Origin: Sphaerochaetaceae bacterium
GTDB taxonomy: Bacteria > Spirochaetota > Spirochaetia > Sphaerochaetales > Sphaerochaetaceae
Reading direction: 5' to 3'
Length of the DNA stretch: 33,530 bases
Assembly (NCBI GenBank): GCA_016938475.1
Contig: JAFGUP010000132.1
Coordinates: 1-33,530 of the forward strand
The notes beneath the pieces were generated by a model. The model did no database searches, was not told where the DNA came from, and saw only the letters and a list, made by a program, of their open reading frames with translations. Shown here piece by piece: positions 19,814 to 26,977 of the stretch. Positions within the stretch are counted from its first letter, which is position 1. Every line of letters starts with the position of its first letter. Both the position numbers and the translations under genes were made by a program.

Positions 19814-20566
19814 CTAGTCTCTCAGTGTACCACCATTGACATTCATCGTCTCTGCAGTGACGAAGGAAGCTTCCCTGCCTGCAAGGTAGCAGACAGCATA
19901 GGCAACATCCTCAGGAAGTCCAAGACTTTTGGTAATACTGTTGTCAATGAACTTCTGGTTCTCTTTAGGGGAAACAGCCCCTGACATTGCAGTCTGTATC
20001 CTTCCCGGACAGATAGCATTCACCGTGATACCATCAGCGCCAACCTGCTGGGCCAGATTTCTGGTAAAAGCAAGTACAGCGCCCTTGGAAGCTGCGTAGT
20101 GAAGGGCAGCCACCGTACCCCCGTTCTTACCTGCCTCGCTGGAGATATTGATGATCCGTCCGAACGTACGTGCTCTCATACCGGGTATAACTTCTTTGGC
20201 TAGAAGGAAATGGGCTTTCACATTCACATTGAACACGAGATCCCACTCGGCTCCCTCGATCTCTTCAATGGGTCTAAGAGGATGAATCCCTGCATTGTTG
20301 ACCAGGATATCGATATGACCAAGCTCTCTGATCACATCCGCGATGAAGACCTTCACCTTTGTTTCATCGGTGATATCGAGTGCATGTGCAACGATCTTCT
20401 GACCTGTACGTGACTCGATTTCCGTTCGTGTTGCTTCAAGCACGTCAGATTTCACATCGCATAAGGCGACATTGACCCCTCTTTGTGCAAGACCGAGCGC
20501 TATCCCCTTTCCCATCCCCTGGGCGGAGCCTGTGACAATCGCTGTCATCCCATTCAAACTGTTCAT
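19814..20566 (-). CDS. Short-chain dehydrogenase/reductase (SDR), NAD-type
   Basis: 250 residues, classical SDR. The cofactor motif TGSAQGMGKG is at 12-21, Asp37 at the end of the second strand favours NAD(H), NNAG is at 90-93, and the catalytic Ser142/143, Tyr157 and Lys161 are in NISSEAG and YAASKG. The PGRIQTAM and NVNGGTLRD endings are FabG/sugar-alcohol dehydrogenase-like. Start at 20566, six bases after GGAG; an upstream TTG at 20578 is less likely. It is the last gene of the DctPQM locus, 53 bases after dctM, so its likely job is to oxidise or reduce the imported compound (a sugar acid, uronate or hydroxy-acid). The exact substrate is not readable. Confidence 0.9.
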   Translation of the reverse strand: MNSLNGMTAIVTGSAQGMGKGIALGLAQRGVNVALCDVKSDVLEATRTEIESRTGQKIVAHALDITDETKVKVFIADVIRELGHIDILVNNAGIHPLRPIEEIEGAEWDLVFNVNVKAHFLLAKEVIPGMRARTFGRIINISSEAGKNGGTVAALHYAASKGAVLAFTRNLAQQVGADGITVNAICPGRIQTAMSGAVSPKENQKFIDNSITKSLGLPEDVAYAVCYLAGREASFVTAETMNVNGGTLRD

Positions 20567-20619
20567 ATGTAACTCCAATTACCCATTCATGTATATTCTC
20601 TAGAGATTCATTCTCTCAC

Positions 20620-21891
20620 TTATCCGTTGAAGACCAGGTTCGGAAGGAACAGGGCTATCTCAGGAACAAAGGTTATCACTATCAAAGCGGCCAGGATCAC
20701 CAGGACGTACGGAAGGATCGCAATCGAGAGTTTCTCGATACTGACGTTGGAAACACTGGATAGTACGAACAGGACAAGTCCCAGAGGCGGTGTCATGAGA
20801 CCGATCATCAAATTTATTATCATGATGATACCGAAATGGACAGGATCCACACCAAGAGCCACTGCGATGGGAAGGAGTATCGGGACCAGAACCATCTGGG
20901 CCGGAGTGGTCTCCATGAAACACCCGACCACCAGCAGCAGCAGGTTGATCACGAGAAGCCCGACAACTTTATTATCAATGATCGAAAGGAAGGTTGCCGA
21001 AAAGGTCTGAGGAAACTGTGAAACAGTAAGCAGCCAGGCGAACAGCGTCGCTGTTGATATGATGAACAGAATACCGATGGTCGTTTTGAGCGTATTGATG
21101 AGGAAATCGGGAATGTCTTTGATCGTTATGGTCTTGTAGGAGAAGCCGAGGATAAGAGCATACACGACAGCTGCAATGGCAGCTTCGGTGGGGGTGAATA
21201 CTCCAACCATGATACCGCCTATGATGATCACCGGAGTAAGCAGTGCGAAAAATGCCCGTCTGAAGGAGATGAATATCTCCTTCATGGTTGCCTTCACCCG
21301 TTTCGGATAGTGTCGTTTCTTCGACTGTATGAACAGGAGAAGAGAGACCACTCCACCCAGCAATAGACCTGGAATGACTCCTGCTATGAACAACCGACCG
21401 ATGGAGACACCGGAGGCAACCCCGAAGACGACAGCAGGCACGCTCGGAGGGATGATGGGACCGACTATCGAGGATGCGCCGGTTACTGCAAGGGAGAAGT
21501 CCTCGTCATAGCCGGCATCTTTCATGGCTTTGAGTTCTATGGCTCCCAGACCACCCACATCAGCAGCTGCGGAACCGGACATTCCAGAGAAAATAATACT
21601 CGCCATGACGTTCGCGTGACCGAGCCCACCGGTGTAGTGCCCTACAAGGTGATCGGCGAAATCGAAGATCTTCTCCGTCACTCCTGCCTTATTCATGATC
21701 TGCCCGGCAAGTATGAAGAAGGAGATAGCGAGCAGAGGAAACGAGTTGGGACCGGCAGCCATCCGTGCAGCTGCCATTTCAAGCGGCAGACCGTTGATAA
21801 CCATGTAGACGATAGAAGAACTGAAAAGTGCAAGGGAGATGGGAGTCCCGACAACCAGCAGGATAATGAAGAGACCAAAGAGTAATGACAT
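20620..21891 (-). CDS. dctM: TRAP transporter large permease subunit
   Basis: 423 residues with about 11-12 transmembrane helices, the DctM (SiaM large domain) ion-coupled translocation subunit. Family segments are MSGSAAADVGGLGAIELKAM near 90-110, ASSIVGPIIPPSVPAVVFG near 135-155, GVFTPTEAAIAAVVYALILG near 225 and MIGLMTPPLGLVLFVLSS near 355. Start at 21891 with GGAGG eight bases upstream; that ribosome site lies inside the end of dctQ, whose stop is one base away. It works with DctQ and the DctP binding protein encoded upstream on the same strand. Confidence 0.95.
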   Translation of the reverse strand: MSLLFGLFIILLVVGTPISLALFSSSIVYMVINGLPLEMAAARMAAGPNSFPLLAISFFILAGQIMNKAGVTEKIFDFADHLVGHYTGGLGHANVMASIIFSGMSGSAAADVGGLGAIELKAMKDAGYDEDFSLAVTGASSIVGPIIPPSVPAVVFGVASGVSIGRLFIAGVIPGLLLGGVVSLLLFIQSKKRHYPKRVKATMKEIFISFRRAFFALLTPVIIIGGIMVGVFTPTEAAIAAVVYALILGFSYKTITIKDIPDFLINTLKTTIGILFIISTATLFAWLLTVSQFPQTFSATFLSIIDNKVVGLLVINLLLLVVGCFMETTPAQMVLVPILLPIAVALGVDPVHFGIIMIINLMIGLMTPPLGLVLFVLSSVSNVSIEKLSIAILPYVLVILAALIVITFVPEIALFLPNLVFNG

Positions 21892-21892
21892 T

Positions 21893-22408
21893 CTAGTTAC
21901 CTCCACCCTGTGACAGGGTGCCTGAAGCCTTCTGTCTCAGGTTCATGATATTCCTGATGAGATTGTTGACCATGTAGATCAGAGCGCCGATGAAACCCAG
22001 AAGTACCGGTGCATGAACAAGGCCCATATTGATCTCCATCGCAGGGGAAAGAATCGTTGCCTGATTGATGAAGAAGTTCCAAGCACCGGGAAAATAAATG
22101 AGAATACAGAGAATCAGGAACGAATCCACTACGATATCGATTATCTGTTGAACTCGAGCAGACATGCGGTCGTAGACGAATGAAATGTTCAGATGCGCTT
22201 TGTACTTCAATCCGAAGCGAATACCCATCAGAGCAATCCATACGTGAAGGTACCGGGCTAGTTCCTCTCCCCAGATAAGGGGTGCACCAAGTACGTAGCG
22301 GAAGAAGACCTGGGCAAACAGGACTACTCCCATAACACCTAAAATGGTCATCAGAAAGTAATCTGAGAACTTGTCCAGATACTGCAGAATGCGTTGTGTT
22401 CTATTCAT
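21893..22408 (-). CDS. dctQ: TRAP transporter small permease subunit
   Basis: 171 residues with four hydrophobic helices. The DctQ signature is present: VVLFAQVFFRYVLGAPLIWGEELARYLHVWIALMG contains the R-Y-x-x-x-x-P-x-x-W-x-E-E-x-A-R motif. Start at 22408 (MNRTQRILQYLDKFSDY) with AAAGGA upstream; a longer open reading to 22600 runs into dctP and is not plausible. The C-terminus lies one base before dctM. A 28-base palindromic stem-loop separates it from dctP. Confidence 0.93.
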   Translation of the reverse strand: MNRTQRILQYLDKFSDYFLMTILGVMGVVLFAQVFFRYVLGAPLIWGEELARYLHVWIALMGIRFGLKYKAHLNISFVYDRMSARVQQIIDIVVDSFLILCILIYFPGAWNFFINQATILSPAMEINMGLVHAPVLLGFIGALIYMVNNLIRNIMNLRQKASGTLSQGGGN

Positions 22409-22456
22409 GTTTTCATGTCCTTTGTCATGTGCAGAGGATTCAGTTGACGTGCACAG

Positions 22457-22484
22457 AGGTTGGGCAGAGTCCTCTGCCCAACCT
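22457..22484 (-). promoter_or_regulatory. Intercistronic stem-loop between dctP and dctQ
   Basis: AGGTTGGGCAGAG (22457-22469) is the exact reverse complement of CTCTGCCCAACCT (22472-22484), with TC between: 13 bp, very stable. It begins 18 bases after the dctP stop. No U run follows in the minus direction, so it is likely an mRNA 3'-end stabiliser or partial attenuator that keeps DctP above DctQM. Confidence 0.75.
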
Positions 22485-22502
22485 GCCTTATCGCTGTGAG
22501 TA

Positions 22503-23504
22503 TTAGTTGATAGCTCTGATTGCCTCGAGGAGACCTTCACCCCATTTTGCAGCATACTCATCATACAGAGGCTGTGCATTTTCAACAAACTTCGATACAT
22601 CGGTCTCGATGATCTTCATTCCCATATCTTCAAGAGAACCGAGGAGATCATCTTCAACAGCGAAAGCCTGCTCGATCCACCACTGGGAGATCTCTGCGCC
22701 TACTTCGTAGATGGCATCCTGAAGGTCCTGAGGAAGCTTTCCGAGAGACTTTGCACTGCCGAATACATGGTTACCTTGGATGATATGTCCTGTACGTGTC
22801 AGGTATTTCTGGACTTCATTGAACTTCATCGAAACGATTGCTGCTGCAGGATTTTCCTGACCGTCAGCCGCTCCTTGCTGGAGAGCAAGATAGGTCTCTG
22901 CGAATGCGATCGGAGTGGGTGTTGCACCGAGAGCCTTCACGGCACCGACGTACATAGGCTGGTCAGGACAACGTATCTTGAGACCTGCAAGATCTTCAGG
23001 CCCCTGAACGATGGTGTCGGTTGTAGTCAGGTGGCGTGTGCCATAGTATCCTGGAACGACCATTGATAGACCGACATCTTCCATGTCTGCCATGAGGTTC
23101 TTGAACAGGTCAGAGGTGTACACTTGTGCAAGGTGTTCTCTGCTTCTGAACACATACGGAGCGTCAAAGATAAGACCGGGGGCGAATCTAGGTGCAACCG
23201 GACCGAATCCTTCGATACCGAAATCGATGGTACCCATGGCCAACCCGTCAATGATCTCGTTACCGGACCCGAGCTGTGAGGCGGGATAAACGTCTACTTT
23301 CACCCGTCCATCGGTTCTTTCGGCTACCATTTCGGCAAACTTCAGGGCGACCCTGTGGTTCAGGTGATCGGTATTGAGTACATGACCGAGTTTAAGGGTG
23401 TAGGTCTTCTCTGCAGAAGCCTCACTGTCACCCTGTGCGAATAGGAACGGGGTACTGACAAGTACCATGAGAAGCGCGATCGTTAGTGTTTTCTTAACGC
23501 TCAT
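22503..23504 (-). CDS. dctP: TRAP transporter substrate-binding protein (DctP family)
   Basis: 333 residues with a Sec signal peptide (MSVKKTLTIALLMV..., cleavage likely near FLFAQ-G, residue 24). The DctP fold is clear: YTLKLGHVLNTDHLNH, VYPASQLGSGNEIIDGL, FDAPYVFR (113-120), and the ligand region GLKIRCPDQPM with the RxP arginine R178 that binds substrate carboxylate, then ETYLALQQGAADGQENP with N218. R157 (GTRHLT) is also conserved. The substrate is thus an organic acid. GGAGG lies about ten bases before the ATG. Promoter at 23595-23623. It is followed by the stem-loop, dctQ, dctM and the dehydrogenase gene. Confidence 0.95.
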   Translation of the reverse strand: MSVKKTLTIALLMVLVSTPFLFAQGDSEASAEKTYTLKLGHVLNTDHLNHRVALKFAEMVAERTDGRVKVDVYPASQLGSGNEIIDGLAMGTIDFGIEGFGPVAPRFAPGLIFDAPYVFRSREHLAQVYTSDLFKNLMADMEDVGLSMVVPGYYGTRHLTTTDTIVQGPEDLAGLKIRCPDQPMYVGAVKALGATPTPIAFAETYLALQQGAADGQENPAAAIVSMKFNEVQKYLTRTGHIIQGNHVFGSAKSLGKLPQDLQDAIYEVGAEISQWWIEQAFAVEDDLLGSLEDMGMKIIETDVSKFVENAQPLYDEYAAKWGEGLLEAIRAIN

Positions 23505-23594
23505 ACTGTTTCATCCTCCAATTTGATGTTGATGTTGGTAGAACTGTACCAGTGCCTTTGAGCGCTGTAAATTGCTAATATTTATGAACAAAAT

Positions 23595-23623
23595 ATAACA
23601 ATTCTCTATTCAAAAATTGTTAA
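23595..23623 (-). promoter_or_regulatory. Probable promoter of the dctPQM operon
   Basis: The minus strand has TTAACA (23618-23623), 17 bases, TGTTAT (23595-23600), in an AT-rich 162-base gap. The expected start near 23588 leaves a leader of about 85 bases, where an operator for the AraC regulator could sit. The -10 is imperfect, as expected for an activator-dependent promoter. Confidence 0.4.
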
Positions 23624-23666: not shown

Positions 23667-24692
23667 TTATAAATCTTTATCAAAGCCCATCTGTTCAATG
23701 TATTCTACAACCCTAGCGTCATACTGCTCATTGACAGGCGCGGGCATCCATGTTGAATCCATGGTCGTGAGGAATGACGATTCCAAAGCGAGAAGCGCTT
23801 CATTTGCATAGTGAAGGGTCTCATTGACCGCCTTCTGTATCAGATTCTGTTCCTGCACACTCAAGGTATCCCAGAAACTCTTGTGAGTAAGGAACAGAAT
23901 CGGAACAGATAGATACCGTGGGTATTCGATAGTCTGTATCGCCCCGCCCACCTCATGTTCGATGAATTGAGTGGTGCTTATCTCCCCGAATGGAATCTGA
24001 GCCTTGCGAAGTAAACCGGTGAGATCCGCCGCCTCAAGATACGTGGGTGTGTACCCCTGCGATTGGAAGAATTCATGACGAAGTGGAGATTCCTGTATAG
24101 AAGAGAGCCCTACCGTCCACTCTTCAGACAGGGCAGGATCTCCTGTTCGAACGATGTGCCTGTATCCATCGAAACCCCAGCCAAGAAGCATGAGGCCATC
24201 ACGCTCAAGATCTTTCTCGATACGGGTCCTTGTACGTTCTCTGTCCAGGAAAGAACTGACTTCGGTGTAGGAAGAAAACATGTAGGGAACTGAGAAGATA
24301 CCCATCGAATCGTACCGTGATAGGTACACGGCGGGGAGCACGACAAGTTCCAGTGCTGTGTTCATCAGACCGAGGAGCTGACTTTCGCTTCCACCAAGCT
24401 GGTTATCTGGATACAGTTCCACCTGAAAGGCGAATCCAGACACGCGCTTCAGTTCGGGAACGAGGACTTCATTCAGTGCTGCATGGATAGGATGGGATTT
24501 AGGGTGCGGGTGAGAGATCTTCACGACCTTGATATCTTCAATCGCCCTGTCAAGTTCGACATGCACTCTGGGTGTGTAGTGTGAAGTCTGAAACAAGGTA
24601 TTCTCGAAAATCAGAGATACAGAGGCAAACAGGAGGATGATGAACAGAAGGATAATGAGTGAGACAGCCAGGAGTACACTTTTTTCTTTCAT
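23667..24692 (-). CDS. Membrane-anchored DctP-like protein, probable sensory partner
   Basis: 341 residues. It starts with an uncleaved-looking hydrophobic anchor (residues 5-29, no AxA or lipobox), then a DctP-type fold: VELYPDNQLGGSESQLLGLM (91-110), FSVPYMFSSYTEVSSFL (133-149) and GWGFDGYRHIV (171-181). Aligned with the transport DctP, R178 of GYRH is kept, but the RxP arginine is replaced: the matching site reads S198-I-Q, before P203. The gene overlaps the AraC-sensor gene by four bases (ATGA). I infer a periplasmic co-receptor or decoy working with that regulator rather than a transport SBP. Alternative: a second, divergent transport SBP of the same permease. Confidence 0.8.
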   Translation of the reverse strand: MKEKSVLLAVSLIILLFIILLFASVSLIFENTLFQTSHYTPRVHVELDRAIEDIKVVKISHPHPKSHPIHAALNEVLVPELKRVSGFAFQVELYPDNQLGGSESQLLGLMNTALELVVLPAVYLSRYDSMGIFSVPYMFSSYTEVSSFLDRERTRTRIEKDLERDGLMLLGWGFDGYRHIVRTGDPALSEEWTVGLSSIQESPLRHEFFQSQGYTPTYLEAADLTGLLRKAQIPFGEISTTQFIEHEVGGAIQTIEYPRYLSVPILFLTHKSFWDTLSVQEQNLIQKAVNETLHYANEALLALESSFLTTMDSTWMPAPVNEQYDARVVEYIEQMGFDKDL

Positions 24693-26914
24693 GATGATCT
24701 CTGGATCCTCCTGTAGGACATCCGATACTTTCCCGGAGTCGTCTTCTGATATTTCTGGAACACGCGCAGGAATGATTGAGTTGAGGAAAAACCTACCCTG
24801 TCACCGATCTCCTCTACAGTGAACGAAGTTCCTTCGAGCAATTCGATTGAGCGCTCCACCCGTCCGCGATTCAGATATTCCAGATAATTATACCCGCAAT
24901 ACTCTTTGAAGATCTTGCTCACGTAGGAGGCACTCAAACCTACTTCTTCACCTATATCGGTGAGCGAAATATTCTTGTTCTCGAGATTCCCGTCTATGTA
25001 GGAAAGTATCTTCTTCGCGACCTCATCGATCCTGTTTGAATCATTGGAAGCAAGAGCGGCAACCACATCCTCTGCAAGATGTAACAGCCACTTCGTAGCA
25101 TCGTCTACGGTTTCCTGTTCTTCGATTCCGCCGATCATGTCGTTTCTCTGTAAAAAAGTCGAACCGTCATCGGTACTCTGAGTGATAAGAGATGCCATAT
25201 CGTGTGCAAGGGAGATATACAGGTCTCGTGCAAGGAGAGGGTTTTCGATCTCTTCAGGCACCGTATCACGTAGTGTGAGAATGAACTCCTTCGCGTGCGA
25301 GAGGTCGGCCAGTTTCAGATAATAGAGAATCCTTTTGTTCACATCAACGACACTATCTGGAAGATTGTGTTCAACGGGAAACGGACGATCATGAATAAAG
25401 ATCTTTCCCGGACCCTGGAGAAATTTATAGTGAAGGAGTGATCGTGCATGGGCGAACGATTCGGTCACAGCCTCAATACCTACAGATACACTCCCCACCG
25501 CACAGGTCAGTGAATGAGACCTATCTTCAGGTGCACCCTTGAGAACAGAAGTGAAACGGGAGACAAGAGGTGCATACTCTTCCCTGGAGGTGAAGAACAC
25601 CACAAAGGCGATACGGTGCTCTGATATCTCGCTTTTCATATGCTCATAGAATGGGTCCTGCAGAGTAATCTCGAGCCGTTCGCTTATCGCATGTTTCAGA
25701 TTCTGTAAACAGTCTTCTCCGTGCTCTTCTTTTATCAGGTAGTAATTATCCACTTCAAGAATGATTCCCGCACAGAGTTGTGTCGACACATCGAGTCCGA
25801 TCTTCTTGAGATCTTGTATAAGTTTCCTTCTCCGCTCAACAGTCCCCTGGAGTATCGTCTGGATGATTTTCTCTTCAATAAGCGGCTTCACCTCATCGAA
25901 CTTCCCCTCGATTTCCCGAAGGTCCTGCACAGGCATGTACAGTTTTCTGGAAAGATTCATGTCTGCGATGATGATGAAGACGATTGCGATGATCACGAAC
26001 ACCATGAGAATAAGGAGAAACGGTCGGATAGGACCGAGGATCATAGAAGCCTTTTCCTCGCTGATCACATACCATTTAGTATAATCCCCCTTGGCGTAGG
26101 AAAGGAACAGCCGCTGTCCATTACGGTCGATAAAATGACTGTCTGTCGGACCTTGGAACAATCCTGCAAGACCGCTGGTATTCCAATAATTGGACCCGAT
26201 GCGTTCAGGGTCTGGGTGAGATAAAATGACACCTGCACTATCGATAATGAACTGGGTACTCCCTTCAAAACCATGTCTGAAGATACTTGAATGGAGTTTC
26301 CTCTCGTCCAGATTGACAATCAGAGCTCCCGTGGCATCCCTGGAACGAAGAGGGATACCTGACATCAGAGAGATTGCAGGGTCGGCTGCACTCATTCTGT
26401 CACGTGCAATGACCACGGGAAAACCGACCTGCAACCTGGTGAACTGGTCGACCCAGCTCACATCATCGAACTGGTGCAGGGGGTGCAGACCGCTTTTGCT
26501 GCTGAGGATGGATCCGTAGGCTCTTGAATAGAGATATATTGACTCGATATTGCTGTTGGAGGAGACATAGTTATCCAACTCTCTGATGATCCGGGTGTTC
26601 TGCGAATAACTGTCTGTATCGGGGGAGACCGTGAACTGGATCACATCGCTGTTATTTCCGAGCGATTTCACTACACTGTCCAGAGTCAGCATCTTCTCGT
26701 CTATAGCTACCGCTATGTTCTCAAGCTGACTCTCCTTCATCTGTATGTATGAATCACGGAAATGTATTGAAGAATACACATGGACAATAACCGTGATGAA
26801 CAGAAGGGGAACCAGGGTAATAAGTGTGACAGTGAGGAATATCCGCAGGTACTTGATAGTTTCCTTATGAAAACCAGATCTGAACAATCCGAGCATCACT
26901 CCTCTCCGATACAT
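24689..26914 (-). CDS. AraC family regulator with membrane Cache-type sensor domain
   Basis: 741 residues from 26914. Layout: TM1 at about 25-48; an extracytoplasmic sensor about 49-297 of Cache type (VSWVDQFTR, GIPLRSRDATGALIVNLDE, FIIDSAGVILSHPDPERIG); TM2 at 298-318; a cytosolic middle region, perhaps a degenerate GGDEF-like/AraC-linker part (CAGIILEVDNYY); and an AraC HTH pair over the last ~100 residues (LTDIGEEVGLSASYVSKIFKEY, VEEIGDRVGFSSTQSFLRVFQKY). It should bind DNA as a one-component transmembrane regulator and control the adjacent dctPQM operon. Start uncertain: 26914 has GGGAG at good spacing, 26896 has AGAGGAG very close. Overlaps the anchored DctP-like gene by ATGA. Confidence 0.88.
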   Translation of the reverse strand: MYRRGVMLGLFRSGFHKETIKYLRIFLTVTLITLVPLLFITVIVHVYSSIHFRDSYIQMKESQLENIAVAIDEKMLTLDSVVKSLGNNSDVIQFTVSPDTDSYSQNTRIIRELDNYVSSNSNIESIYLYSRAYGSILSSKSGLHPLHQFDDVSWVDQFTRLQVGFPVVIARDRMSAADPAISLMSGIPLRSRDATGALIVNLDERKLHSSIFRHGFEGSTQFIIDSAGVILSHPDPERIGSNYWNTSGLAGLFQGPTDSHFIDRNGQRLFLSYAKGDYTKWYVISEEKASMILGPIRPFLLILMVFVIIAIVFIIIADMNLSRKLYMPVQDLREIEGKFDEVKPLIEEKIIQTILQGTVERRRKLIQDLKKIGLDVSTQLCAGIILEVDNYYLIKEEHGEDCLQNLKHAISERLEITLQDPFYEHMKSEISEHRIAFVVFFTSREEYAPLVSRFTSVLKGAPEDRSHSLTCAVGSVSVGIEAVTESFAHARSLLHYKFLQGPGKIFIHDRPFPVEHNLPDSVVDVNKRILYYLKLADLSHAKEFILTLRDTVPEEIENPLLARDLYISLAHDMASLITQSTDDGSTFLQRNDMIGGIEEQETVDDATKWLLHLAEDVVAALASNDSNRIDEVAKKILSYIDGNLENKNISLTDIGEEVGLSASYVSKIFKEYCGYNYLEYLNRGRVERSIELLEGTSFTVEEIGDRVGFSSTQSFLRVFQKYQKTTPGKYRMSYRRIQRSS

Positions 26915-26977
26915 AATACTCCCGCACAACCATCCTTCGAAACGAGAAAGAGGACCTGCAGTAGAGAGTTTTCCTGT

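Follow-up and report, generated by a model that had tools for sequence, protein, structure and literature searches.

Organization of the locus

The window analyzed here, a stretch of 33,530 nucleotides from a Sphaerochaetaceae bacterium, carries a gene for a membrane AraC-type regulator, a gene for a degenerate solute-binding protein (pDctP), and a TRAP transport operon (dctPQM). The regulator gene (24689–26929, minus strand) was annotated by Pfam and by alignment with its orthologs. The product is a one-component regulator, comprising a transmembrane segment, a dCache domain (residues ~60–290; dCache_1, 60 bits), a second transmembrane segment, a GGDEF-like region, and an AraC-type HTH domain (residues ~650–736; HTH_18, 59 bits). 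Comparison with the orthologs indicates that its true start is probably the ATG at 26896 and not the listed TTG at 26929. The pDctP gene (23667–24692, minus strand) starts with ATG and encodes 341 amino acids. Its start codon sits within the stop of the regulator gene, and the 4-base ATGA overlap described in an earlier note on this DNA was read directly at 24689–24692 (minus strand).

The transport genes lie on the same strand. DctP, the transport solute-binding protein (22503–23504, minus strand), was annotated with a Pfam score of 244.6 bits and possesses R178 of the RxP motif. The small permease DctQ (21893–22600, minus strand; Pfam DctQ, 95.6 bits), the large permease DctM (20620–21906, minus strand; Pfam DctM, 399.7 bits), and a short-chain dehydrogenase (19814–20578, minus strand; Pfam adh_short, 192.7 bits) follow, the last being the final gene of the presumed operon. 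The DctQ reading frame as listed runs about 98 bases into dctP; translation more probably begins at an internal ATG (MNRTQR...) downstream of the first ATG of the frame.

The gene at the 3′ side of dctM varies among related loci. It is the short-chain dehydrogenase (19814–20578) in the window and a zinc alcohol dehydrogenase in the loci L037 (12576–15393, with the following genes) and L019 (13698–14720). In L037 the zinc alcohol dehydrogenase is followed by the N-terminal half of a transketolase and then by its probable partner half. These differing genes after dctM hint that dctPQM takes a sugar-acid or polyol-derived substrate.

A related dCache-AraC sensor adjoins a dctQMP operon at another locus (L020:6720–10556), where pDctP is absent, which indicates that this type of regulator can operate in its absence. 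Just before the L020 sensor lies a gene for a membrane-anchored SBP_bac_1 protein, which overlaps a response-regulator gene; this protein may be another co-sensor of the solute-binding protein (SBP) type.

Predicted fold and membrane anchor of pDctP

Pfam, AlphaFold2, Foldseek, and hydropathy analyses identified pDctP as a membrane-anchored, degenerate protein of the DctP fold. The Pfam family DctP (PF03480) matched it with 81.1 bits against a curated cut-off of 23.4. It is by far the lowest-scoring of the 17 DctP-family proteins in the host genome, the next one reaching 166 bits. The AlphaFold2 model, built on a 38-row alignment, had a pLDDT of 86. It consists of a helix at residues 3–33, predicted to span the membrane, a disordered linker (34–49), and a DctP fold (55–334) in which both lobes are predicted to be intact. 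The top Foldseek matches were SiaP, DctP, and other TRAP binding proteins (E ~1e-20; TM-score normalized by the target, ~0.75). The Pfam score above the cut-off and the fold place pDctP in the DctP family by descent, and the DctP-type fold assigned in the earlier note is thus borne out.

The N-terminal anchor had also been described as lacking a cleavage site, and this stands as a prediction. All four pDctPs found in this study (see below) have a long transmembrane-like helix. Their maximum hydropathy over 19 residues is 2.7–3.2; transport DctPs have a median value of 2.19 and do not exceed 2.77. A lipobox is absent from all four pDctPs. The anchor therefore looks uncleaved in the models and hydropathy profiles; cleavage by signal peptidase is conceivable in principle.

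Distribution of the module

The module of AraC sensor, pDctP, and dctPQM was found in the window and in three more genomes (L018, L019, and L037). The four genomes represent three families of the class, as classified in the genome search: that of the window and two more, to which the three relatives belong. The four loci are a small set, and two of them, L018 and L019, are closely related. Full-length homologs of the AraC sensor were retrieved from two genomes of another family (L018 and L019), and L037, from a third family, was found by a profile search with three pDctPs. The gene order of L037 is that of the window, with overlapping genes. In L018 and L019 pDctP lies directly behind the regulator although dctPQM is divergent. 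The overlap between the regulator and pDctP genes is ATGA in L018 and L019 as well, and longer in L037. Adjacency, overlap, and the predicted anchor were present in 4/4 modules, and the pairing of pDctP with the sensor noted earlier holds at every locus, with pDctP directly behind it each time. pDctP is outside the dctQM operon, being coupled to the AraC sensor and divergent from dctPQM in L018 and L019. This gene coupling gives good support to a functional coupling of pDctP to the regulator.

It could be argued that pDctP acts on the transporter, as a tethered DctP mimic that binds no ligand but docks on DctQM, where it restrains transport or reports on it. pDctP always occurs in a module with one dctPQM subtype: the ortholog of the module's transport DctP (63–64% identity) was present in 4 of 385 genomes of the class, exactly the four that bear the pair. 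However, the coupling is to the regulator and not to the permease: the AraC and pDctP genes overlap even at the loci with a divergent dctPQM. Moreover, the pDctP orthologs, which are 20–29% identical to the window protein, have drifted (22–29% identity in this comparison) far more than DctP, DctQ, and DctM (55–72%). We consider a role on the transporter improbable.

No further pDctP was found in 393 genomes of the phylum, to which the genome survey was confined, or in the families and order of the relatives; in these large-set profile searches the five best candidates per genome were scored, so rare members may be missed. Contig scans queried with pDctP, or with the small pDctP alignment, gave no match, and plasmid records yielded ordinary DctPs only (23–26% identity). 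A check of 26 further loci of the class with AraC or kinase sensors showed no DctP gene downstream of the sensor.

Ligand-binding residues

The expected site of the RxP arginine in pDctP is S197–S198 (24099–24104, minus strand), as located by two alignments. R178 of the transport DctP aligns with S198 or with an adjoining one-residue gap, depending on the alignment, and the window pDctP has no Arg or Lys at this site or within about 5 residues of it. The loss of the arginine at S198, as first noted from the sequence, holds with this latitude. It also extends to all three orthologs: the arginine is missing in 4/4 pDctPs and present in 55/55 transport DctPs examined (16 of them from the genome of the window, and a few near-copies of one another). 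The E-N-P pocket motif of transport DctPs is absent from pDctP as well. The arginine of the GxRH motif, which had been reported as kept, is indeed present in the window protein. In the L037 ortholog a Ser takes its place, so this arginine is not a conserved feature.

The RxP arginine occurs in 96.8% of 6142 Pfam sequences, and high-affinity binding is abolished in SiaP without it (PMC4646407). Judging from these residues, canonical carboxylate binding by pDctP is unlikely.

The pDctPs of L018 and L019 have 272 residues and miss about 70 residues, mostly of the first lobe; the DctP fold was still predicted for these shortened proteins (pLDDT 87). Both lobes are represented in the L037 protein. 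These data bear on whether pDctP is a true co-receptor for a non-carboxylate ligand, or a ligand bound in another mode, which it would present to the regulator as DctB or CuaD do. The intact lobes of the window protein and of L037 are consistent with such a role, and DctB and CuaD are themselves SBP co-sensors. SiaP with R147A still closes on its ligand at high concentration, and R147E takes a non-carboxylate (PMC4646407). On the other hand, the E-N-P motif is lost, the GxRH arginine is replaced in L037, and the proteins of L018 and L019 are under selection despite the missing binding-lobe residues. Ligand binding by pDctP itself thus appears unlikely. The earlier note had proposed a sensory co-receptor that presents a ligand, or the loaded SBP, to the Cache domain of the regulator. 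The gene coupling supports the co-receptor part well, these losses make the presentation of a ligand less likely, and the loaded SBP may be what is presented.

Selection and descent

For L018 versus L019, dN/dS was 0.111/0.558 in pDctP, 0.011/0.346 in the transport DctP, and 0.078/0.576 in the regulator. pDctP is maintained by purifying selection between these two genomes (dN/dS ~0.2), and its amino-acid sites evolve about 10 times faster than those of the transport DctP. These values indicate that pDctP is kept but fast-evolving. Identity between the window and L037 rises from pDctP (29%) through the dCache domain (35%), the HTH domain (58%), and DctP (64%) to DctM (72%).

The very rapid divergence and the large deletion in two members might suggest that pDctP is a decaying, functionless duplicate, behind the regulator by chance. 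This is very improbable: the frame is intact and the genes overlap in four genomes of three families, the dN/dS between L018 and L019 is ~0.20, and the fold is predicted at a pLDDT of 86–87.

Phylogenetic analysis of 63 proteins united the four pDctPs in one clade (100/100 support) separate from the adjacent DctPs; their deeper placement in the DctP tree is unsure owing to long branches. We reject the view that pDctP arose by recent duplication of the neighboring dctP, as the two proteins match each other with an E value of only 2.4e-5 and take separate positions in the tree.

Promoter element upstream of dctP

A two-part element, TTAACAAT-N44-TTTACA (23566–23623, minus strand), is conserved before dctP and was annotated as a putative regulator site plus a −35 element. 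A consensus scan gave a promoter-like pair for dctPQM, TTTACA-17-TACAGT (23543–23571, minus strand); this pair alone scores no better than chance, and its TTTACA half is conserved. TTAACAAT, followed by 44 or 45 bases and TTTACA, is upstream of dctP in 4/4 modules, and the pattern was not found at the other loci compared. No chance match of the pattern is expected in the window. The 3.07 Mb genome of the window has one copy, two of the relatives have one each, and the third has two. The pattern is present both at loci with the regulator genes upstream and codirectional and at those where they are divergent. This independence of the regulator orientation fits a regulator site plus the −35 element of dctPQM, and the regulator may bind at the TTAACAAT element. 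Three matches with differing spacings (G002:C236, C320, and C567) were seen in a genome of the same genus where the module was not found; these look like chance matches.

Proposed mechanism

We propose, as the simplest model, that the AraC regulator and pDctP form a co-component sensor of the TRAP operon, with the degenerate, tethered DctP as its subunit, and give this reading a probability of roughly 0.6. The gene arrangement indicates that pDctP belongs with the regulator, and conservation of the promoter points to dctPQM as the likely target of the regulator. Three parts of the model are inferred: that pDctP touches the dCache domain, what the signal is, and in which direction control runs. 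The N-terminal helix would keep pDctP in the membrane, and canonical carboxylate binding would have been given up. The sensor parts of both proteins are predicted to be on the outer face of the membrane, where pDctP and the dCache domain would most likely form a permanent periplasmic complex. With canonical binding improbable, the likelier source of the signal would be either a dCache ligand or docking of the substrate-loaded transport DctP on the complex. Occupancy of the complex would alter the cytoplasmic AraC HTH domain, which would act at TTAACAAT-N44-TTTACA and switch on dctPQM. We speculate, tentatively, that the second signal is the one used: the non-binding, tethered pDctP would read the loaded transport SBP by SBP-on-SBP docking and relay its state to the AraC regulator in a kinase-free manner. 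This specific route is doubtful.

Comparison with known systems

pDctP shares its fold and sequence family with the TRAP binding proteins SiaP and DctP. It differs from them in having neither the RxP arginine nor the E-N-P motif, in its anchor, which is predicted to be uncleaved, and in its transcription unit, which it shares with the regulator. DctB of B. subtilis is itself a member of the DctP family. An SBP-type "membrane co-receptor", it is needed together with the sensor DctS for induction of the gene for a carboxylate transporter (PMC6978683). The B. subtilis system (DctB with DctS/DctR and DctA) is, with VtrA/VtrC, the nearest precedent for the pDctP pair, both having an SBP-type accessory protein beside a membrane sensor. 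It differs in its histidine kinase partner, its non-TRAP transporter, and the substrate binding attributed to DctB.

SBPs also signal to membrane sensors of transporter genes in CuaD-CuaSR (PMC10384115) and BctC-BctDE (PMC5812351). CuaD, a lipoprotein, binds its ligand with nanomolar affinity, and BctC doubles as the transport SBP; unlike pDctP, both work with histidine kinases. pDctP has the gene plan of the DctB/CuaD co-sensors, adjoining a membrane sensor in 4/4 loci near the dctPQM operon that it would help control. Its partner is a dCache-AraC one-component regulator, unlike the histidine kinases of the DctB/CuaD type.

VtrA/VtrC and ToxR/ToxS each pair a membrane-tethered transcription factor with a periplasmic partner that is also tethered; the two genes adjoin, often overlap, and evolve fast (PMC9214523). 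The same plan of a tethered transcription factor, an adjacent tethered periplasmic partner, and a gene overlap was found for pDctP and its regulator. The components differ, with a VtrA/ToxR/CadC-type HTH and a lipocalin-like partner in those systems and a dCache-AraC protein and a degenerate DctP here, and we do not claim homology.

A literature search for a TRAP/AraC/Cache/SBP sensor found no precedent. The SBP-activated receptors in a published survey comprise chemoreceptors, sensor kinases, diguanylate cyclases/phosphodiesterases, and Ser/Thr kinases, and include no AraC-type one-component regulators (PMC9602780). If the proposed reading is true, AraC-type one-component regulators would join these classes, and pDctP would be a binding protein turned pseudo-receptor, comparable to the pseudokinases. 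On the same reading, the compact set of four loci and the conserved promoter element would allow direct testing of transport-coupled induction, and if SBP-on-SBP docking is also true, the occupancy of transport would be sensed without a kinase.
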